Shown here piece by piece: positions 32,488-43,372 of a stretch of DNA of 64,000 bases; position 1 is the first letter of the stretch, and every line of letters starts with the position of its first letter. Both the position numbers and the translations under genes were made by a program. The notes under the pieces are model-generated. The model was not told the origin of the DNA and ran no database searches. It was given only the letters and a program-made list of their open reading frames with translations. This stretch comes from Dioscorea cayenensis subsp. rotundata (Eukaryota; Streptophyta; Magnoliopsida; Dioscoreales; Dioscoreaceae): positions 124,001 through 188,000 of the forward strand of contig NW_024088559.1 in NCBI RefSeq assembly GCF_009730915.1. Direction: 5' to 3'.

Positions 32488-33360
32488 CCTCTCAGATATT
32501 AATATACAAACCTATCAAGGAAATATAAACCCTTGTCAGCATATAACAAATTACACCTGAATCCAGCCAACAAAATCCATGGAATGAACCAAGATTCTGT
32601 GAAAAAGCCTCAATGATTCTTCCTTTGTGATTATATCCACAAACTGAAAATCATTCACTCGATCCATCTCCAGAACAAAGAAACAACAAATTTATCATTT
32701 TTTTTTTCATCTATAAATCCAGCAGGTCAAACCAAACTAGAAAAGGGCATGCTCATCCATTGCAACATAGATCACCCAAAATGATCACATGACAACCAAC
32801 AACAACCATTCAAATCGATTCTGGCCAAAATCAAACCACTAAAATCACTAACAAATCAATCAAGTAATCCAAAAAAGACTCGATCTCCAAAGTCAAACCA
32901 CCAAAACCATCATCAAATCAATCAAACAAAATAGAAAAACAAGAACAAGAAGAATCAGAACGTAAAAGAACCACCTTTTCATGGATATATGGATCAATCT
33001 CTCTGCCACCGCGTTGAATGAGGCGGGCGAGAGAGAAACGATGCAGCTCTTCGCCTCCGAGCTTTGCACAGCGAGGGGGGATTCATGGCCCAGTGAAGGG
33101 AGCGAAGAAGAGGAGAACGATAGGGACTCAGCCCCGTTCCCAACCTCTCTTTCTCTTTCTCTTTCTTCTCTTCTTTAGTATTAAATGCTCAGCTAATCTA
33201 TCGTCTTATTAGCATATTACCCCCTCAAATCCTCTCTAATTCTCAATTATTTCTTGTTCTTAAAAAAAAAATTTAAGACTTTTACTATTTACACCTTGTT
33301 CTATCAATTTTTCCCACCGAAATTAGAAATTATTTCAGGGGTCTTTAATGATAAAAAAAA
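32488..33360 (-). other. 5' leader with intron and short promoter of PP2A B'
   Basis: On the minus strand, a donor (AAAAG|GTGG) ends an upstream exon at 32975 and an acceptor (GATAG|GTTTG) starts the ATG exon at 32511, so the leader is probably split by a 0.46 kb intron. The first exon lies in about 32975-33175 next to a purine-rich tract. Only about 190 AT-rich bases remain between it and the left edge of the Mutator-like element. Confidence 0.5.
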
Positions 33361-34084
33361 GTGGAAATTGCCAAAAAAACCCTTTAAGTTTGTAAAATTG
33401 CCAAAAACACGTTAGTTTTTGCGATCACAAAAACCCTCCTTTTTAAAAGTCATGTTTTTCGAAACCCACGACACTATAGCGGATGTGAGCGGAGTGAGTT
33501 TCAAATTTTTTTGGACGAAAATGCCCTTGCAGTGGGGAGTCGTGGGCTGCGACCCATCTCGGCGATTTGAGAGGAAGTGGGGGTTTTCAGTGAGAGTAAC
33601 TCGAGAGGCAATTTATTGGAGCCAGTTTAATTGCTTTTTCTCGACTCACGTCTTGACTTTTCCATTTCAGATGTCTCGAAGTTGTCTCTCTGCGTGAAGC
33701 CTCTGTAATTGCCATTTCATCGACTTTTTCCCTTTCCACGGTATCTCGAAGGAGAAGTCCCCGCATGACTAGTTGGCGTTTCATCGATTCTGATCTAAGG
33801 TATTGAGTATGGTTTTATGTTAGCGTTACATTACGAAAGAAAGATTTTTTTCGGTTTTTGTTTTGTGCTCCTGTTTTTTGTTGGAAGATATTGAAGTCTG
33901 AGGGGGATTTCTCATTTGGGGTTTTGTTAGTCTGCGGGGAGATTTCTCGGTTAGGGTTTTGTTTTGTTTTTGCGTTTTTCAGTATGTATACACTATCGAA
34001 ATAGTTTTTCGATTGTTATGATTTGTGTAATATTTATAATGTACATTTCCGTTTCGTTTGATATGGTTGCGATTTTACAAATGA

Positions 34085-34240
34085 GGTTGACGTTTAAGAA
34101 ATGAGATGTTCTGAGTTTAACATTTGTTGTCTCTGTTTAAGTATTCCGTCTCTGTTTAACAAAATGGGTCTCTGTTTAACATTTTATATCTACGTTTAAT
34201 AAGCGAGAGTTCTGGGTTTAAAACCTTATATTTAACGCTT
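34085..34240 (+). repeat. Phased GTTTAA array 1 (about 21 bp period)
   Basis: GTTTAA(G/C/T/A) occurs at 34092, 34115, 34135, 34154, 34174, 34194 and 34216, with steps of 23, 20, 19, 20, 20 and 22 bases. The sequence between copies is largely unconserved apart from a TCT often just before the motif. Confidence 0.85.
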
Positions 34241-34299
34241 AAACTTTTTGTCAATCTGCGAGGGCTTGTGATTATGGCGGTCGACCTAGTTAATGGGCG

Positions 34300-34570
34300 T
34301 TGCTATTTGACGCGGTTGTGGAGACCTTAGGCGAATTGAAAGTTAACATGACCCCTCGACACTGGGAGATTATTCGAAGGACACCGTTTGCGGCGTTATT
34401 TGGTGGAAGCCATATACCGAGAGGGCCCTTCTTGATTCTCTTTTGCAAAGATGCGATGGTCGCACCGATAAATTCGAGGATCGGGGAAAGCTGCTGAGTT
34501 TCGGGACCTCGAGATGTGGCCCTCGTTCTTGAGTACGCGTTGCGATGGCGGCAGCGATGGTCTTCGAAGA
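34300..34570 (+). pseudogene. DUF1985-like segment of the MULE-carried protease gene
   Basis: A broken frame that reads MTPRHWEIIRRTPF and then, in other frames, KFEDRGKLLSFG, the kind of sequence found in DUF1985 domains that precede ULP1 proteases in plant MULEs. The frame changes and stops soon after. No intact product is possible from the sequence as given. Confidence 0.45.
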
Positions 34571-35074
34571 AGAAAACCGGTCGGCGTTCGAAGGTCGGTA
34601 TCTATCAAAGACCTACGAGAGACGCAGAGACTCCGTCGAGAGCACTGCGGTGCAACTTGTTCGACGGAGGGGAGAAGAAGATAATTTTGTCGAAACTCGA
34701 TGGTGTACCTCGTAGGGGACGATCCTCTTCCCAAATACATCATGCTCGGTTCGAGCTGGATCGTTGATTACGTCGATGATCTACTCGACCGTGGGAGGCG
34801 ATCTGGCGTAGGCGCGAGCGGCGCTGAAGTGGCTTATGGAGGATATTCCTGGCGGCCGCCCGAGTGCAAGATAGATCTGTCGGGAAGAAGACCCGACACG
34901 AGAGTGCATTAAGGGTTGCTCGGTCGCTTAACGTGCAGTTTCTGGTGGCCGGAGCAGGGGAAGAAAGTCCGTTTCGGCGAGATCCCAAGGATCTTTGTGC
35001 TACGGTGAAAGTACTTACGGGAAGCAGCGACGGTGAAAAGCGAGACTTGTCGTCGCTCGATGGAAAAGAGGTAA

Positions 35075-35245
35075 TAAATCATGGACGATGTTTAACATAA
35101 GTCTTTAATGTTTAAACATTTTTATTTAGCGTTTAACTTTAGTATTTACCGTTTAACTCTTATTAAATACTTGGTTTAAATATTTTTGTTCTCCGTTTAA
35201 TTATATTCTATAACGTTTAAATATATAGTTTTTATAGTTTAAAAT
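35075..35245 (+). repeat. Phased GTTTAA array 2 inside a probable intron
   Basis: The motif occurs at 35090, 35110, 35131, 35151, 35174, 35195, 35215 and 35237, with steps of 20, 21, 20, 23, 21, 20 and 22. The array begins right after a donor-like AAAAGAG|GTAAT, so it appears to be intronic. Confidence 0.85.
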
Positions 35246-36509
35246 GAATGATCTCATTTGAAATTGTTTTGGTTTACATATGTTAGTTTCTGAAATTTGG
35301 TTCGTGAATCTTTGAAGAAGAAATATTTGTTGGCGCTGACCGAGCGGATGGATGCCATTGCTCCGGAACCACTTGCTCGAGGCGAGGGATGAGGAGGGCG
35401 ACCTCTCATCGTGCTTGGCTGGGCGCCGTTCTCCTACTTCCGACCCACCACGCGCACGCATTCCTCGGCCCGGAGAAGCCCTCCCCTACCCGGCGATTGC
35501 AGACAACCCCCTACCACGACAGCAGCGGTCCCCACGACCATGGCGGCCCCTCCGGCAGTGGCGGCCCACGGTAACATTAGGGCGAAGATGTCACCGCAAC
35601 TCTTATGCGGGCGTGCGAGATATTGATGACCGAGTTTCCTCGGCTTGTCGCTCGTGTGGGCGCTGGAAGGGCGTTCGCAGCCATTGCGCCATCCCTCGAA
35701 AAGAACCCGAAAGCACCCGGGACGAGCAGGCGTCGGAATTTGGCGACGGCGACATCATCGGGAAGGTCGTTTCAAAGCGGCCACATTCGAAGAGACTTGC
35801 GAAAAAGAGGAGAACAATCTGCCTCTGTCTCCGCATGCGGGTGACGATGAAAGCAATAGCGACACCATCGGTGGTGATCTTTCATTCTTGAGTGCATCGC
35901 CGTTGATGACATGGCCGTGACGGTGGAGGGACATCGTAGATGATGTGGCCGTTCTGCGGTTGAGAAAGGTCGTTGACTCTCTTCTCGATGAAATCGTCGA
36001 CCGGTGGAGCCAGTTGCCGAGATGCGGCGTCAGATGGACACGATCCACGAAGGTCGAGAACAAGTTAAAGGGTGTGTCTCCCGATGATCTTTGTTGTCGT
36101 GGCCCGCGGTTGAGAAGATCGTCGAATCCGTTCTGAGTGGCCGTGGCCCGACGATGCCGCTGACCAGCGGGACACGATCCCACCACAACAAGAACCATGT
36201 AAGGAAGTGTCTGCGGTTGATCTTTGTCGCCCAGTCGTCCCAGCGTCGAAGCCGGACACAATCCCACAACAAGAACAACAATGTAAGGATGTATGCGCGG
36301 TTGATCTTTGTCGCCATCGTCCCGCGTCGAAGGAAGATCTTTGATGAAGACCCCGAGCCAGAGCGGCGAGAGAGATGATCGAGGCGATCAAAAATTGGAC
36401 GGGGACGGCTCGGAAAGCTTTTATTCGAAGAAGAAGAAATGGGTTGGCACGAGTCGTCTTAACAAATCTGACGAGGGAGTTGATGAGGATCTTCCTCAGC
36501 TGCTCTATG

Positions 36510-36715
36510 GACGGGTAAGTGTAACGTTTTTATGATATTGTTTAAAGAGTTTCTTATAGTGTTTAACTATTACCTAATAGTGTTTAATACAATTATGTTA
36601 TCATTTAAGTTTTTAGCCTTACTGGTTTAATTATATATAATATCATGTAACAATTGATAATATCATTTAAATATTTACTGATATGGTCTTCTAATATACA
36701 TTATCGTTTAACCTC
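36510..36715 (+). repeat. Phased GTTTAA array 3 inside a probable intron
   Basis: Copies start at about 36540, 36561, 36582, 36604 (weak), 36625, 36645 (weak), 36665 (weak) and 36706, so most steps are 20-22 bases. It starts just after a good donor (CGG|GTAAGTG). Confidence 0.8.
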
Positions 36716-37345
36716 GAGACATCGTGTGGAAGAATAGCATTGTCGGCCTCACCTGTGACGAGGTTATACTGCTGCTTGAGGGGAAGGAGATGGTCGCTGA
36801 TGATGTGATGGGACGCTTTCGTATGCATAATACAAAAGTCGTGACGAAGAGCCATATCCTTACAAGCAGCGCCTCCATCATCGAGACCGCTTACGCTGTT
36901 TATGTCAAAGCGAGGACGGCGCACATGACACAATTATGGCTATGATCGGGGATGCTTTGTCGCTGACTGCGTGAAGTTAAAGTGTCGTCCTCCCGATAAT
37001 CATGAATGGCCACTTCCATGTACGTCGTCACGGACGATGATAAACAAGAATACGGGCGTTATTCTTCGTATCGAGAGTGCGATAAGGACAGCGTTGGACA
37101 TGGTAAGTTCTTTAATTATGTCAGATTAATATCGTTTTGGTATTTAAATCGGTATTCTAATCTCGACTTGCGTATCTCGGCGGTGGAATCTATTCGACCT
37201 TTGTGTCGATATGGAGTTAAGCGAGTCGGCGACAGCAAAAGTACCCGCTCGTGCGCGACACGAAACCCCAGCGCGAAAAACAAGGAAGCGTCGATTGCGC
37301 GTCGTCGTCATGCGGTTTATCGAGCAGATGCTGTGGGGTGAGAGA
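36700..37345 (+). pseudogene. ULP1-like (C48) protease remnant of the MULE
   Basis: Several frames together recall a C48 deSUMOylating-protease domain. A segment with GHFHV, then after a one-base shift VVTDDDKQEYGRYSS, fits the region of the catalytic His and Asp. Near 37280-37335 VDC, then after a shift VVVMRFIEQMLWG, fits the active-site Cys region (family pattern DCGVFVMRF). Single-base shifts and stops break it throughout, so it cannot encode a working protease as written. Confidence 0.55.
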
Positions 37346-37533
37346 TTCTGACTACTGCAGACGAGGGCGTTCCTTACCTCGGATTACGGTATGTTACCCG
37401 CATACTTAAGGAGGGAGGCGGTCGGCGTCCGTGACAAAGGGGGTCGTCGCTGGCGGGTTAAATTACATTTTTTTGAATAACATGTCTTGTATATCGATTG
37501 TCGATTTTGTTTTCAAATGTAAATCCGGACAAA

Positions 37534-38106
37534 TTCAATTCATTGTTTTTCGTGTTCGAAGAACATGACTTGTATATCTTAATGTAAATTTTTGTTTGTT
37601 TTTGAATTGTAAAGCGGGTTAAATTCCATTCGGTTTTTATTTCATTGTTTAATTTACGTTGTGATTGTGTACATTTCACTTTCATTGTTTAAATATAGTA
37701 TATATCGTTTAAACATCGGTTTTAAATATTTCAAATTACGGTGTACCCGTTTAAAAATAACACTTTCTCTGTTTAAATGAATGCACTTATTGTTTAACTA
37801 AATATGGAAAGTTGCCCATCAATACACAATTCAATTCATTGTTTTTTTGTTTTTCGAAGAACATGACTTGTATATCTCAATGTAAATTTTTGTTTGTTTT
37901 TCAATTGTAAAGGCGAGGTTAAATTTCATTCGAGTTTTCATTTCATTGTTTAATTTACGTTGTAGTTGTGTACATTTCCGTTTCATTGTTTAAATATACC
38001 ATATATCGTTTAAACATCGGTTGAAATATTTCAAATTACGAGTGTATCCGTTTAAAAATAACAATGTCTCCGTGTAAATACATTCAATTCGTTATAAATA
38101 CACAAT
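37534..38106 (+). repeat. Two-copy tandem repeat, unit about 297 bp
   Basis: Copy 1 (37534-37830) and copy 2 (37831 to about 38106) both start TTCAATTCATTG. They share the order AAGAACATGACTTGTATATC, then TAATTTACGTTGT, then CATATATCGTTTAAACATCGG, with few differences. Each copy contains phased GTTTAA motifs; in copy 1 these lie at 37687, 37707, 37729, 37749, 37771 and 37792. It separates the plus-strand protease remnant from the convergent minus-strand transposase. Confidence 0.9.
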
Positions 38107-38699
38107 GTTTCCCACTATCAGTCGTCGGTTTATTAACAATGCCTGAGTCGTGACGAGTTTCATTGCAAGATAAATCGATTGTGGCCGGATCCTTGGCGGT
38201 GAGTGCGATGTAACTTCGCGGACATCAAGCGCTTGCGACTCGATCCTCTTTCGTCTAGGCCGCCCGGTGCCTTCTAGTCGCGGTGATGCATAAGCGAAGC
38301 TCACGATTTCCGTCCGAAGGCATGTCGTACGTCGGGTATGGGGAATATAGCTTCGTTGTATGCCGGTTTGTAATTGTCGGCGGTGAAGTACCCGCTCATA
38401 AATCGATGTACGTTGGTGTGCATGCGCATTATTCTTTGCGCAAGCATGTTTGCGAGGGATACCGTAAACTTGCCACGCTCGACGTGAACAAGTTACGATG
38501 GCGAGATCCACGGAGTTCTTTGCATTGGTCGATCGCCCGTAGCGATCGTCGACACTGACGACCAACCACGAAGATTTCGGTGCATCCTCAACGATGATCT
38601 CTAACCCGAATGTATGTGCGGGCGTAAGTAGGGTCTCCCCATTTGGTCGCTTGCTCACGCTGGGTTACATAACATGCGCATCGACTTGAACACGGCAAA

Positions 38700-38840
38700 T
38701 AAGGTTAAACAAAAGGCGATTGATGGTTAAATAATTCGATCGACATGTTTAAACATTATTGTAATTAAATAAAGCGAAATGATTAATATTTAAAAGTCGA
38801 GAAAAAGTGTAATTAAACAAAGATTGAGAATGTTTAAAGG
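38700..38840 (-). repeat. Phased TTAAAC array in the transposase region
   Basis: TTAAA(C/T) occurs at about 38705, 38727, 38749, 38765, 38789, 38813 and 38833. The orientation is opposite to arrays 1-3 and matches the minus-strand gene. Spacing is mostly 20-24 bases. Confidence 0.7.
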
Positions 38841-40199
38841 GTAATACTAAATGTTAAGTGTAAATCAACATTCGCGAGACCTTATGGAGTCGACCATTTT
38901 TAGTCATCGGTAAATGGCGAGCTTCCTTGATCCAAGCGTTGAGCGACTCCGCGACGTTCGAATACATCTCACCCCAGCGATCACCTCCGAGCGGATAATT
39001 CGACCCGATGTGCCATATCCGATTTATTAATCAACCCGGTGATGAGCTTGGGTGATATGGCTGCGGTTCATTCGCGGTATCGTCGAAATCTTTAGCCGTG
39101 GATGCCCGCGCAATGCTGGAAGCATATGAGACCCGGCACTCCTCCCTCGATGCCTTCCCAAGTCGACATTGGCTTTTCGTAAAATTGGCCTCCAAATGTC
39201 GAAGGCGATGCGCGTGTGGCGAAGAAGGGAAGACTCTCGCAATTGCGCTCACAAGGCCCTTGGACTCGTCCGACACGAAGGTAATTATCTCATGATAATC
39301 TCCACCCTCGTATAAGGCATCGCCCTGACTTAGATATGAACCAAGTCGATTGGCGTCGGTCTCGTTGTCGACTATACCCGAAGGCGGCGTGGAAAAAAAC
39401 CATTGTTACCATCTTTCACTGTGGCACGGTGAGTGTACCCCGATATTTTTCCAAGGAGGTGGGTACCATCGAGAAAGCAGTGACTGACTGCAAGCCCTCT
39501 TGAATCCCTGATACACGCTACGAAAGAAAAGAATGCACGTTTAAAAGCGATCGCGTCTCTCTCCCGCGATCGCTTAGCTGCTAGGGATTTGTCTCGACCA
39601 CCTTATCCACATACCAAAGCAAGCGAGTCATGGCTGGAGATGTCAGCTGCCGTCGAGGACCACCCGGGCGTGCTCTTTTTCCCAACCAAGCACTGCTTGT
39701 ATGGTATGTGGACACCATGTTCCCGCATACATGTCGCTACGAATGTCGATGGCCTTGTACGAGGGGCGGTCCTTGAGCTTACGAATCACTCGTGCGCTAA
39801 CCCATTTTTTTGGGCGCTTTTCGGATGTGGCGCTTGAACCTATGCCACCACCGCAAGTGTGTGACGGGTTGATTGTCTTGATTACGAAAAGTATTTTTGT
39901 TATACTCTTTTTGATGCGTGAAGGCGCAGCGACAACCATCGGCGGCGCATTCCGCGATCGCCCGATGTTTTTCGTTCTTTATGAATTTGAAGTCAAAAAT
40001 TCCTTTTGATTGCATGATTTGAAAGTACATCCACGAAATGTTCGACACCGTCAAAGCGTTGACCAATATCCAGCGACAACACTTGAGAATGATCGGCGAG
40101 GAAGTAAGACATCCACGCGTCGAGGGTCGCCCATGGGGATGAATGGGAGCACTCGCGAGAATCCGAATTCACCTGACACTTGATCGAATGAAAAGATCA

Positions 40200-40310
40200 A
40201 TATGTTAAGCGGAGAATATAATGTTTAGCGATAATGACAATAGTTAAGCGTTAAATTAAATACTTAAACAATTAACTAATAACGTAAAGGACTAGTACGA
40301 TATGTTAACC
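40200..40310 (-). repeat. Phased TTAAGC/TTAAAC array in the first transposase intron
   Basis: Motif starts at about 40204, 40223, 40243, 40264, 40284 and 40304, with steps of 19-21 bases. It lies between the MGSQV first exon and the DNA-binding domain on the minus strand. Confidence 0.75.
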
Positions 40311-40984
40311 CGATGGCGGACATATTTAAACAATAATGACCCCGGACAAGTGAAATAATTAAAAAGAAAAGGAACTTCTGACGAGTAAACCTCGTTTTCG
40401 TTAGGATTCGACGATGGCGCATTTTACGTCTCGACGACAAGATCAACTTCTGACACATTTGAAGATGGAGTGGGCGTGACACATCCGATGGAAGTCGACA
40501 TCGTTTTCTATTGGGCGAAACCGTTTTATATCCATACGGTGTGATGAACTTAACCACGACAAGAGAAACTTGAGACCCCATCGCTCACGTATCTCGATTA
40601 ACACCAATTCCCAGAAGTCGAGCAGTGAACATTAGCACTCTTCCCTCCCCGTTGAATCTAGCAATACCACAAAAACTCTCCATAATATATCGATTCGAAA
40701 AACCAAATCGTACAAACCTAATGAAATGAAGAACAAAAGCGAAGGCGAGCGAAGAAGAAGTAGAAGATGTAAAGAACAAGCAGCGATCGAGCGCAAACAA
40801 AAAAAGTCTGCGAGTTGTATGCATAGAGGTTAGATTAGGCGTGATGTGATTGGGCGGTATTTTTTTCCCTCCATCCCAAGGGCAAAAAGGGAAATATATG
40901 TCATTGTCGCGAGGAAGACATGTTGTCATCGTTCGAATGAAAGTTCTCAACTCAACATGAGTCTACGTGTAAGCGTCGAGCTTT

Positions 40985-41280
40985 TTTTATGTTTAAGCAG
41001 GATACATATAGTGTTTAAAAATAGCGGTTAGCTGTTTAACTAAAAGTCTATATCATGTAAATAATATGTTATTGTTTAAATTGAATGCTTTTCAGCTGAC
41101 ATCGCGTTGCTAGATGGGTACCTCTGAGTCATTTGTTTAAACATATTTACGTATTTTTCTTAAACACCGTTGTCGTTGTTTAAAGAGTAACTTGAGTATT
41201 GTTTAACTTTTTCTATTGTTTACAATGAGCGTTTTTTTGTTTCCCACATTGTTTTTTTACTAGGTCTCTGTTTAAATTTC
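40985..41280 (+). repeat. Phased GTTTAA array between the two right-end copies
   Basis: Copies at about 40991, 41013, 41034, 41055 (weak), 41074, 41135, 41178, 41201, 41218 (weak) and 41270. The better-spaced steps are 19-23 bases. Confidence 0.7.
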
Positions 41281-41325
41281 GAAGTTCGCGATCGAAATCT
41301 GATTGTTTTCGTTTTATTTATAAAA

Positions 41326-41382
41326 GATTTACAACATTTACAACATTTACAAAGATTTACAACATTTACAACATTTACTGAC
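41326..41382 (+). repeat. ATTTACAAC short tandem repeat
   Basis: The 9-mer ATTTACAAC or close variants repeat about six times, broken once by an AAG insertion. Confidence 0.85.
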
Positions 41383-41960
41383 GTCAGCTCGGACTTTGGG
41401 ACGCTCACGACTCGACCCTCGTATAGCGAAACAAGTGTACATGCGTTCGAATGCTCACGGCGGTTGCATAACAAAGCGCATCAACTTGAACACGCAAAAG
41501 CGTCTGACATTAAAAAAAGGTTAAACAACACACGTTCATGAAAAGCGACTATTAATCGATGTGTCGTGGTAGGACTTAAGCGGCGATCACGATAGTTAAA
41601 CACGAGCGTAACGGGTTGTACTGTCGGCGTCGTTTTCTTAAGCGTTAACGAGAAAGTCTCGAGTGGTAAATGTCGACCCCGTCTTAAAGGATGTTTCATG
41701 ATCTCCCTCCTCTAGAGAATCCTCCCATGATCACGCGATACGTGAAAACTTTCTTTTCATACCCAAGTCGAAATGCTCTCTTAATTGCTTTCCCAGTCGT
41801 CCAGCTTTGGAGAATCCTCTGCGTTCGAGGCGATTATGAGAGGACTTGACTAGGGCGAGAAAAAGATAGTTTAACTGGTTCGGTGATTACGGCTGAGTGA
41901 TTCTCAAGATAAGGGAAGAAGGCTCACGAAACATCCTTTCGGATAGAGTGGTTGTCCGTG

Positions 41961-42006
41961 GGAAGAAGGAGGAAGAGGAGGAGGAGGAGGAGGAGGATGA
42001 TGAGGG
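41961..42006 (+). repeat. (GGA)n simple repeat
   Basis: About 45 bases of GGA/GAG triplets, with a small GATGAT interruption at the right, inside the duplicated end of the MULE. Confidence 0.85.
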
Positions 42007-42309
42007 GACGGCGAGGTGGTTGTCCGTGGGGAGGGTTCTTCACAGTTGTTATGGTGTGAAGTCCGCAGCGGTGACTCTTCGTGTCCGAGAAAAAAAGTTA
42101 AGCATGCGATGGCCGAGCATTGGTGATGAGAGCGAGCGGGTGTTCGGAAATTTATGTTACCGTGCGTAAAATTAATGCAGTCGTTAATTCTTACTGCGGG
42201 ATACTCTACCTCTTGCCACTGCCGCGTGCCGCATGCCGACAATTCGGATCAAGCGAAAAAGATCACCGTTTCTGCGAGACTTTGAGAATTTAGCGTTTAT
42301 GAATAGTTA

Positions 42310-42430
42310 TACATGTAAAGATAATGTTAAGCGGAGATGGGAAGTATTAAGCGGATATGACAATTATTAAACATATTAGTAAAATATTTAAGCGGATAAT
42401 AGCAAATAGTTAAACATTATTTAAAATATA
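42310..42430 (-). repeat. Phased TTAAGC array near the outer right end
   Basis: Motifs at about 42325, 42346, 42366, 42387 and 42409, with steps of 20-22, some followed by GG. It has the same position relative to the N-terminal transposase-like exon (42480-42700) as the 40200-40310 array has to its copy. Confidence 0.7.
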
Positions 42431-42479
42431 CTGAAATAGATAACCATAAGCGAGAAGAACTTTCTGACGAAATGAACTC

Positions 42480-42720
42480 AGTCGTAATTCTTGTTCTTCT
42501 CGTCGTAATACTGACTTTACTAACCATAAGCGAGAAGGCGACGATGGCACGTGCTGCGCCTCGACTGATAAAATCGACTACATTTCGTTTTGAAGATGAA
42601 GTGCGCTTGACCCGATCAGATGGAAATCGATTTCATTTTACGTTAGAAAGCCGATTTATATATTTCGGGTATGATAATGAGGAGAATAACAAGATGTAAT
42701 GTAACTCCTTGGCATTGTCT
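42480..42720 (-). pseudogene. Second copy of the transposase first-exon region
   Basis: This segment aligns with 40385-40620 over most of its length. Both carry GACGATGGC, then CGTCTCGAC- or CGCCTCGACTGA-like sequence, a TTTGAAGATG block, a GATCAGATGGAA- or CATCCGATGGAA-like block and TTTATAT near the end. On the minus strand the shared peptide is a basic RxRxPSD segment. It is a diverged internal duplicate, not a gene of its own. Confidence 0.55.
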
Positions 42721-42961
42721 ATCGAAACCAAGCGAAAGCCCTGAGGTTGAGCAGTGATGTGATTTGGCGCTTTCGCTTTTCCCACTATTTTCGGGGCCAA
42801 AAAAATGGGATTTCTGACATGGACCCGATTTGAAGTGAGCAGTGAGGGGGTAAAAGGGAAGTTAAAGCACTAACGGAAGAAATCGTCAGTGGTGTGTAAA
42901 AAAAGTAGGAGGGGTTTTTGGGAAGTTTTGAAAATTACGAGGGTGAGCAGTAATTTTTCCC

Positions 42962-43241
42962 TATGTAAACATTGGAGAAAAAAATGAGGATAATTGGACC
43001 AATTTTTAATATATATATATATATATATATTTAATGATAAAAAAATGTAAACATTGGAGGAAAAATGAGGATAATTGGACCAATTTTAATATATATATAT
43101 ATTTATTTATTTAATGATAAAAAAATGTAAACATGGGAGAAAAATGAGGATAATTGGACCAATTTTAATATATATATATATATATATTTTTAATGATAAA
43201 AAAATGTAAACATTGGAGAAAAATGAGGATAATTGGACCAA

Positions 43242-43283
<42 letters not shown>

Positions 43284-43338
43284 ATGATAAAAAAATGTAA
43301 ACATTGGAGGAAAAATGAGGATAATTGGACCAATTTTA

Positions 43339-43370
<32 letters not shown>

Positions 43371-43372
43371 TC
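42962..43372 (+). repeat. Five-copy tandem array (unit about 75-90 bp) beside the MULE
   Basis: Each unit reads TGTAAACATTGGAG, then AAAATGAGGATAATTGGACC, then AATTTTAATA with a variable (AT)n, then TTTAATGATAAAAAAA. Copies differ mainly in the AT tract length. The left flank of the MULE (33342-33360) matches the end of this unit, so the element interrupts the array. Confidence 0.92.

Follow-up and report, generated by a model that had tools for sequence, protein, structure and literature searches.

GYTTAA arrays at two-helical-turn spacing in a Mutator-like element of yam, candidate target sites of a VANC-like protein

Why does one short motif recur at nearly constant steps through the non-coding parts of a transposon? 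This question is raised by a decayed Mutator-like element at about positions 33346 to 42963 of a 64-kb stretch of the genome of the yam Dioscorea cayenensis subsp. rotundata (C2163:124001-188000), which we call the window. We found that the element carries phased arrays of the motif GYTTAA together with a DUF1985 gene and a transposase, that the arrays keep their place, orientation, and phase in other copies, and that a related clade of elements has a different motif at the same places. The arrays are probably the target sites of a sequence-specific anti-silencing protein of the VANC kind that the element itself encodes, an interpretation that draws on gene content, array conservation, and the precedent of the VANDAL transposons.

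Phased arrays and genes of the element

Between positions 33361 and 42961, the hexamer GTTTAA occurs 43 times, compared to 5.6 expected from dinucleotide shuffles. At distances of 19 to 23 bp it forms 22 pairs, while 300 shuffles averaged 0.013 and never exceeded 1; a further peak lies at 39 to 44 bp, with zero pairs at 24 to 38 bp. Of all 6-mers found at least five times in the element, GTTTAA has the most pairs at 19 to 23 bp. These measurements bear out the phased GTTTAA arrays that an earlier note on this DNA had described. The positions of the eight clusters listed there were right, but two clusters had been missed, at 37948-38055 and, more loosely, at 41521-41643. The note had also named GTTTAA and TTAAGC as cores; both do recur, but since TTAAGC is the reverse complement of GCTTAA, they are not separate cores but the two strands, and the C and T types, of the single motif GYTTAA. 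In the 64-kb window outside the element, GTTTAA, TTAAAC, GCTTAA, and TTAAGC form zero pairs at 18 to 23 bp.

The step of about 21 bp that had been reported holds for the decayed window copy, in which 30 neighbor steps of 19 to 23 bp average 21.0 bp, but not for 14 better-preserved relatives of the same clade (clade A, below), in which the step is 20.39 bp with a standard deviation of 0.71 (113 of 145 neighbor steps). Lags in these 14 loci are coherent near 40-41, 61, 81, 102, 122, and 142 bp. We also counted pairs across the whole genome (584 Mb in 2249 contigs), with the reversed pattern at identical spacing as the control. GTTTAA pairs at 18 to 24 bp number 18,781 + 19,570 (38,351), compared to 3,489 + 3,559 for the control, while pairs at 29 to 35 bp, an interval that includes three helical turns, are unenriched, at 2,276 + 2,310 (4,586) versus 3,777 + 3,679 (7,456). 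Since a distance of about 31 bp, or three turns, is not favored, the unit is two turns, which is more than a shared face of the helix. The two-turn phasing proposed earlier is real, but placement on one face is insufficient by itself.

The arrays run forward in the left half of the element and mostly in reverse in the transposase half, largely as the earlier note had stated. The exception is a mainly forward block at 40991-41276 within the transposase half, and the cluster at 38705-38838 is mixed, with three exact copies in reverse and two forward. The forward block is common to A18, a better-preserved copy within C18:13293001-13307000 that is 76 to 85% identical to the window element in aligned pieces.

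The limits of the element are drawn where its homology to four more full-length copies, all on contig C1, begins and ends; these copies are about 71 to 87% identical in the longer pieces. It ends in short, degenerate terminal inverted repeats (TIRs), GTGGAAATTGCCAAAAA on the left and, read inward, GGGAAAAATTACTG on the right. A 9-bp target site duplication (TSD) is clear in two of the five elements checked, namely the copy at C1:2291607 and a short derivative at C1:1109113; the copy at C1:81894 lies amid TAA repeats, the one at C1:2793520 has an N on its left side, and a search for a TSD at the window copy found none.

The transposase is on the minus strand and a gene of the DUF1985/Ulp1 type is on the plus strand, with convergent 3' ends. 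Transposase pieces in the window match the Pfam domains MULE (0.0048) and DBD_Tnp_Mut (1.2e-4) below the cut-off, while a majority read-through of five copies matches them at 1.1e-9 and 1.3e-18. In A18, the strand opposite the DUF1985 exon matches DBD_Tnp_Mut at 3.7e-23 and MULE at 2.4e-14. A SWIM domain was found at 8.7e-11 in the copy C1:81894-91469, and the Pfam scan of the window's own 38092-38664 frame gave no match. The copies and the read-through together have the DNA-binding domain, the MULE catalytic domain, and the SWIM finger of a MURA-type transposase, and the assignment to the Mutator-like elements made in the earlier note stands.

On the plus strand, the DUF1985 exon of A18 has 267 open codons and matches DUF1985 (8.6e-10) and the plant mobile domain (PMD; 6.2e-12), both above the cut-off. 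The linker downstream of this exon contains a tandem repeat, of 84 bp in the window and 78 bp (3.1 copies) in A18. An Ulp1-like region follows, antisense to the transposase; in A18 it is 35% identical to its counterpart in clade B, which matches Peptidase_C48 at 2.4e-10 when its exons are joined by hand, and this identity is what links the clade A region to the Ulp1/C48 domain. A search of the Protein Data Bank (PDB) with the clade B C48 region retrieved SENP1/SENP2 at E values of 0.004 and weaker, and one with the DUF1985 exon gave no match. The dN/dS ratio is 0.43 over six pairs among the 4 of 14 clade A exons whose fixed 720-base reading is free of stops. Intron edges were set at GT donors read by eye from genomic sequence alone. 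With these edges, the same-orientation arrays fall within probable introns and elsewhere in non-coding DNA, which is where the earlier note had put them and where VANDAL elements have theirs.

Conservation of the arrays and a different motif in a related clade

All four of the other full-length copies hold the arrays in place and in phase, save for deletions: the block at 40991-41276 is mostly gone from C1:2291607, and in two of the four the duplicated intergenic block lacks its first half. Conservation was measured by taking motifs present in one copy and asking how often two other copies agree. Across the five whole copies, the A/T sites of motifs agreed at 92.9%, those of spacers at 85.6%, and those outside the arrays at 84.0%; for G/C sites the three values were 84.0%, 72.0%, and 79.2%. 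In the 14 clade A loci, the values for motifs versus spacers were 93.1% versus 75.5% at A/T sites and 70.4% versus 60.7% at G/C sites. Motif bases are better conserved than spacer bases.

A search of the genome for DUF1985 scored 150 matches among 455 candidates, and 14 control genomes gave 0. Of the 150, 29 were studied further: the 20 top-scoring ones (as loci), 8 picked by hand from the list, and the locus E18. Fourteen of the 29 form clade A with the window, and in every one of them GYTTAA arrays flank the exon on both sides, with 3 to 13 in-phase pairs at each locus and the same orientation as the DUF1985 gene. Another six form clade B, and all six have TGTGTA arrays at the same two places, again in the sense of the gene, with 3 to 7 pairs per locus. 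One locus, L055, branches beside the window's clade and has a looser TTAA-core array, mostly NYTTAA, with steps of 20 to 21 bp at the same place. The expectation that relatives of the element would keep the arrays is borne out within the clade (four of four copies and 14 of 14 loci); the eight more distant loci show no such array in the stretches read.

On a DUF1985 tree of 30 tips, with L055 assigned to the window's clade by the analyst, the motif label changes twice, and the lowest of 5000 shuffles had 8 changes; the 22 motif-bearing tips alone have one change, and their lowest shuffle had 2. Related elements differ in array motif, with GYTTAA in one clade and TGTGTA in the other. In B17, a longer clade B stretch, TGTGTA clusters occupy the left half and their reverse form the transposase half, a layout that resembles that of GYTTAA in A18; in the scan of B17, the repeats GAAGAA and AGAAGA rank above TGTGTA. 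Genome-wide, TGTGTA pairs at 18 to 24 bp number 2,866 + 2,814, compared to 1,788 + 1,783 for the control. For clade A exon relatives, a first look gave 6,142 candidates; 144 were scored and 30 were stop-free, the query's own place among them, and the stop-free relatives other than the query are 78 to 94% identical. We also observed dense TGTGTA pairs with clean 20-bp steps in both orientations at C1:12791922-12794127, a candidate clade B-type or derivative element.

Arrays are also present in short derivatives. The 1.75-kb element at C1:1109113-1110864 has in common with the window element the two ends and part of array 1 only; both ends are recognizable, a 9-bp TSD is present, and 27 motifs run forward at steps of 20 to 21 bp. 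Three kin, at about C1:24.2-26.9 kb, 1561.1-1563.5 kb, and 2684.0-2685.9 kb, align along most of its length, beginning 15 to 91 bases inside the left end and reaching the right end, and have 30, 26, and 26 forward motifs, respectively, within the aligned limits. Among the four, both ends were recognized in C1:1109113-1110864 alone. In the homology comparison, which included no gene search, the short derivatives had no match to the coding parts of the window element. A second short element with the same type of ends (L017, C1:91490-93190) abuts the full-length copy C1:81894-91469.

Coordinates of the features and neighboring repeats

The features of the element are listed in Table 1.

Table 1. 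Features of the Mutator-like element, in window positions
Feature	Position	Strand	Basis or remark
Whole decayed Mutator-like element	33346..42963	.	Homology limits against other copies; ends laid out
GYTTAA array 1, upstream of DUF1985 exon	34092..34222	+	Same place in 14 of 14 clade A loci
Broken DUF1985 exon (VANC-like)	34270..35075	+	Read-through E 0.026; A18 homologue DUF1985 8.6e-10, PMD 6.2e-12
GYTTAA array 2, probable intron after DUF1985 exon	35090..35243	+	Donor GAG/GTAATA near 35072, by eye
84-bp tandem repeat, coding linker (repeated peptide)	36166..36332	+	78-bp repeat in A18
GYTTAA array 3, probable intron before Ulp1-like exons	36540..36712	+	Donor GGACGG/GTAAGT near 36514, by eye
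Broken Ulp1/C48-like exons	36713..37440	+	A18 homologue 35% identical to clade B C48 domain
GYTTAA array 4, between convergent gene 3' ends	37647..38055	+	Two near-duplicate blocks, 37647-37798 and 37948-38055
Broken transposase 3' exons, SWIM region	38092..38690	-	SWIM 8.7e-11 in copy C1:81894-91469
GYTTAA array 5, probable transposase intron	38705..38838	-	Mostly reverse
Broken transposase exons, MULE catalytic domain and DBD_Tnp_Mut	38860..40200	-	Read-through and A18 Pfam matches
GYTTAA array 6, probable transposase intron	40204..40331	-	Reverse
GYTTAA array 7, upstream of transposase exons found	40991..41276	+	Mainly forward; A18 block forward too
Looser GYTTAA cluster, four copies	41521..41643	-	Reverse
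GYTTAA array 8, near right end	42327..42415	-	Reverse

Other repeats lie in or beside the element. A 79-bp tandem array of about 4.8 copies (42963-43371) begins right at its right end; because TTTAATGATAAAAAA of the repeat unit is also found directly left of the element, the element may have inserted into or beside this array. On the transposase side, a stretch at 40391-40555 and at about 42500-42677 is seemingly duplicated, with matching duplicates in other copies and in A18, and two perfect 28-bp units of a tandem ATTTACAAC lie at 41323-41378 in the same half.

A VANC-like protein as candidate reader of the arrays

Arrays of this kind have a precedent in the VANDAL elements of Arabidopsis. 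According to the sections of Hosaka et al. 2017 (PMC5735166) drawn on here, VANC21 binds YAGTATTAY, which is arrayed in the same orientation in the introns, intergenic regions, and terminal regions of VANDAL21, and DNA methylation is lost; VANC6 targets other motifs, AGTTGTCC/AGTTGTAC, likewise in tandem repeats; and slippage is the supposed route by which VANC targets expanded. That paper's report of arrays in the introns of VANDAL elements overturns the earlier note's view that internal-intron arrays were undescribed. VANC proteins have DUF1985 together with tandem peptide motifs in their variable parts (PMC5735166, PMC10398659).

As far as the cited parts of the VANC/VANDAL papers extend (PMC5735166, PMC10398659, PMC6446971), the yam element shares with these systems a DUF1985 gene besides the MULE transposase; a short motif repeated densely in tandem and in a single orientation, within introns as well as in intergenic and terminal DNA; motif variants with C or T; related elements whose motifs differ; a protein whose variable part contains tandem repeats; and short degenerate TIRs, with 9-bp TSDs in two of the five elements checked. 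It differs in its motifs, GYTTAA and TGTGTA. Arabidopsis VANC proteins carry DUF287, whereas this domain was absent from all Pfam scans made here. Ulp1-carrying (Kaonashi/KIU) VANDALs and anti-silencing systems are described for eudicots in the consulted portion of a review (PMC13317346); like these VANDALs, the yam element has a putative Ulp1-like domain in a VANC-type gene, and it differs from them in its particular motifs and families. The excerpts available of another study report ULP1-bearing MULEs in grapevine, melon, rice, and Arabidopsis (PMC2528002), with the ULP1 domain in direct or reverse orientation, as here; unlike here, arrays are unmentioned in that text as available, from which the word "tandem" is absent.

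Binding sites for a protein encoded by the element, one of the two readings offered in the earlier note, are the best account of the arrays. The product of the plus-strand gene would be a DUF1985 protein ending in an Ulp1-like domain, and it would bind GYTTAA sites in one orientation, one site per two helical turns, throughout family copies outside their coding parts. Such dense occupancy may then remove DNA methylation from the element, by which its genes and ends would become usable, and short copies that keep the ends and arrays could be served in trans. Protein and motif would co-evolve, with the other clade coming to use TGTGTA arrays. The DUF1985 protein, rather than the transposase, is the expected binder because of the VANC precedent in the cited sections of PMC5735166.

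Several points weigh against this explanation. Binding, demethylation, and the choice of the DUF1985 protein over the transposase as the binder are steps that we infer, and since the transposase and DUF1985 genes travel together, the tree cannot tell which of them reads the motif. The window's DUF1985 match is weak (E 0.026, below the cut-off, as the best Pfam match of the read-through), and Pfam scans of the window, the copies, and the read-through gave no direct Peptidase_C48 match for the clade A Ulp1-like exons. The motif-versus-spacer figures ignore the kinship of copies and array homogenization. Eight of the 29 DUF1985 loci (L025, L029, L030, L033, L052, L053, L056, and E18) have no in-phase pairs of GYTTAA or TGTGTA in the stretches read, and scans established no other array motif in them. 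When motifs were rescored against 12 plain shuffles each, L052 scored 3.0 versus a shuffle maximum of 2.0 and the other six were at or below theirs; L029 was scanned only. E18 (L045-L046, C18:18448001-18460000) is a MULE whose DUF1985 frame spans 324 codons and whose transposase pieces are open, and in scans it had neither GYTTAA nor TGTGTA arrays and no other array motif.

We considered three other explanations. The arrays could be binding sites of the transposase that aid assembly of the transposition complex, which we regard as unlikely. CACTA elements carry subterminal transposase-binding arrays, the yam element encodes a DNA-binding domain (DBD_Tnp_Mut), and the short derivative, which would need to be moved in trans, retains arrays; however, the arrays are mostly found inside the element, within introns or in the space between the genes, rather than beside its ends, and no array was found in E18, although it carries both a DUF1985 gene and a MULE transposase. 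The second reading of the earlier note, a decayed and functionless satellite of 20 to 21 bp spread by slippage, is very unlikely. Tandem Repeats Finder does score several arrays as 20- to 21-bp repeats, the derivatives contain satellite-like units, and VANC targets are also thought to grow by slippage (PMC5735166, in the part cited), but motif bases are clearly better conserved than spacer bases of like class (A/T or G/C), the spacers drift, and place, orientation, and phase are held across copies that are about 71 to 87% identical. A tandem satellite was rejected on this conservation and on the presence of a different motif at the same places in another clade.

It is less probable still that the repeats are intron splicing signals or a nucleosome-phasing sequence. 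They are T-rich, on the sense strand, and mostly intronic, and 20.4 bp is twice 10.2 bp, near two turns of nucleosomal DNA, in which a turn is about 10.2 bp. However, arrays are also found in intergenic DNA, close to the right end, and in the short derivative, the 29- to 35-bp spacing is unenriched, and the introns of other DUF1985 clades show no array.

We suggest tentatively, giving the whole of this reading slightly less than an even chance, that this one genome holds at least two VANC-like systems side by side, each with its own motif (GYTTAA or TGTGTA) at strict two-turn spacing. With three-turn spacing unused, the reader would be a protein chain built on a fixed repeat of two turns and sensing spacing as well as sequence, and the looser TTAA-core array of L055 would be a step in a change of motif. 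An abstract by Sasaki et al. from 2022 reportedly states that specificity is set by motif sequence, density, and helical periodicity. We looked for literature linking VANDAL with helical spacing and found nothing relevant, and we found none joining DUF1985, Ulp1, and MULE or joining MULE, Ulp1, and tandem repeats. The GYTTAA and TGTGTA arrays, the tree fit, and the 20.4-bp step were not met in the portions of the VANC/VANDAL literature consulted, and no literature search was aimed at them.

The kind of system is already known, and the GYTTAA and TGTGTA motifs differ from the Arabidopsis ones. A VANC-like system, known from Arabidopsis, would thus be present as a large family in another plant genome. 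Its two unrelated motifs and apparent intermediate are natural material for asking how a DUF1985 protein may switch motif at a fixed spacing, and the short copies that retain little beyond ends and arrays are material for asking why such copies persist.

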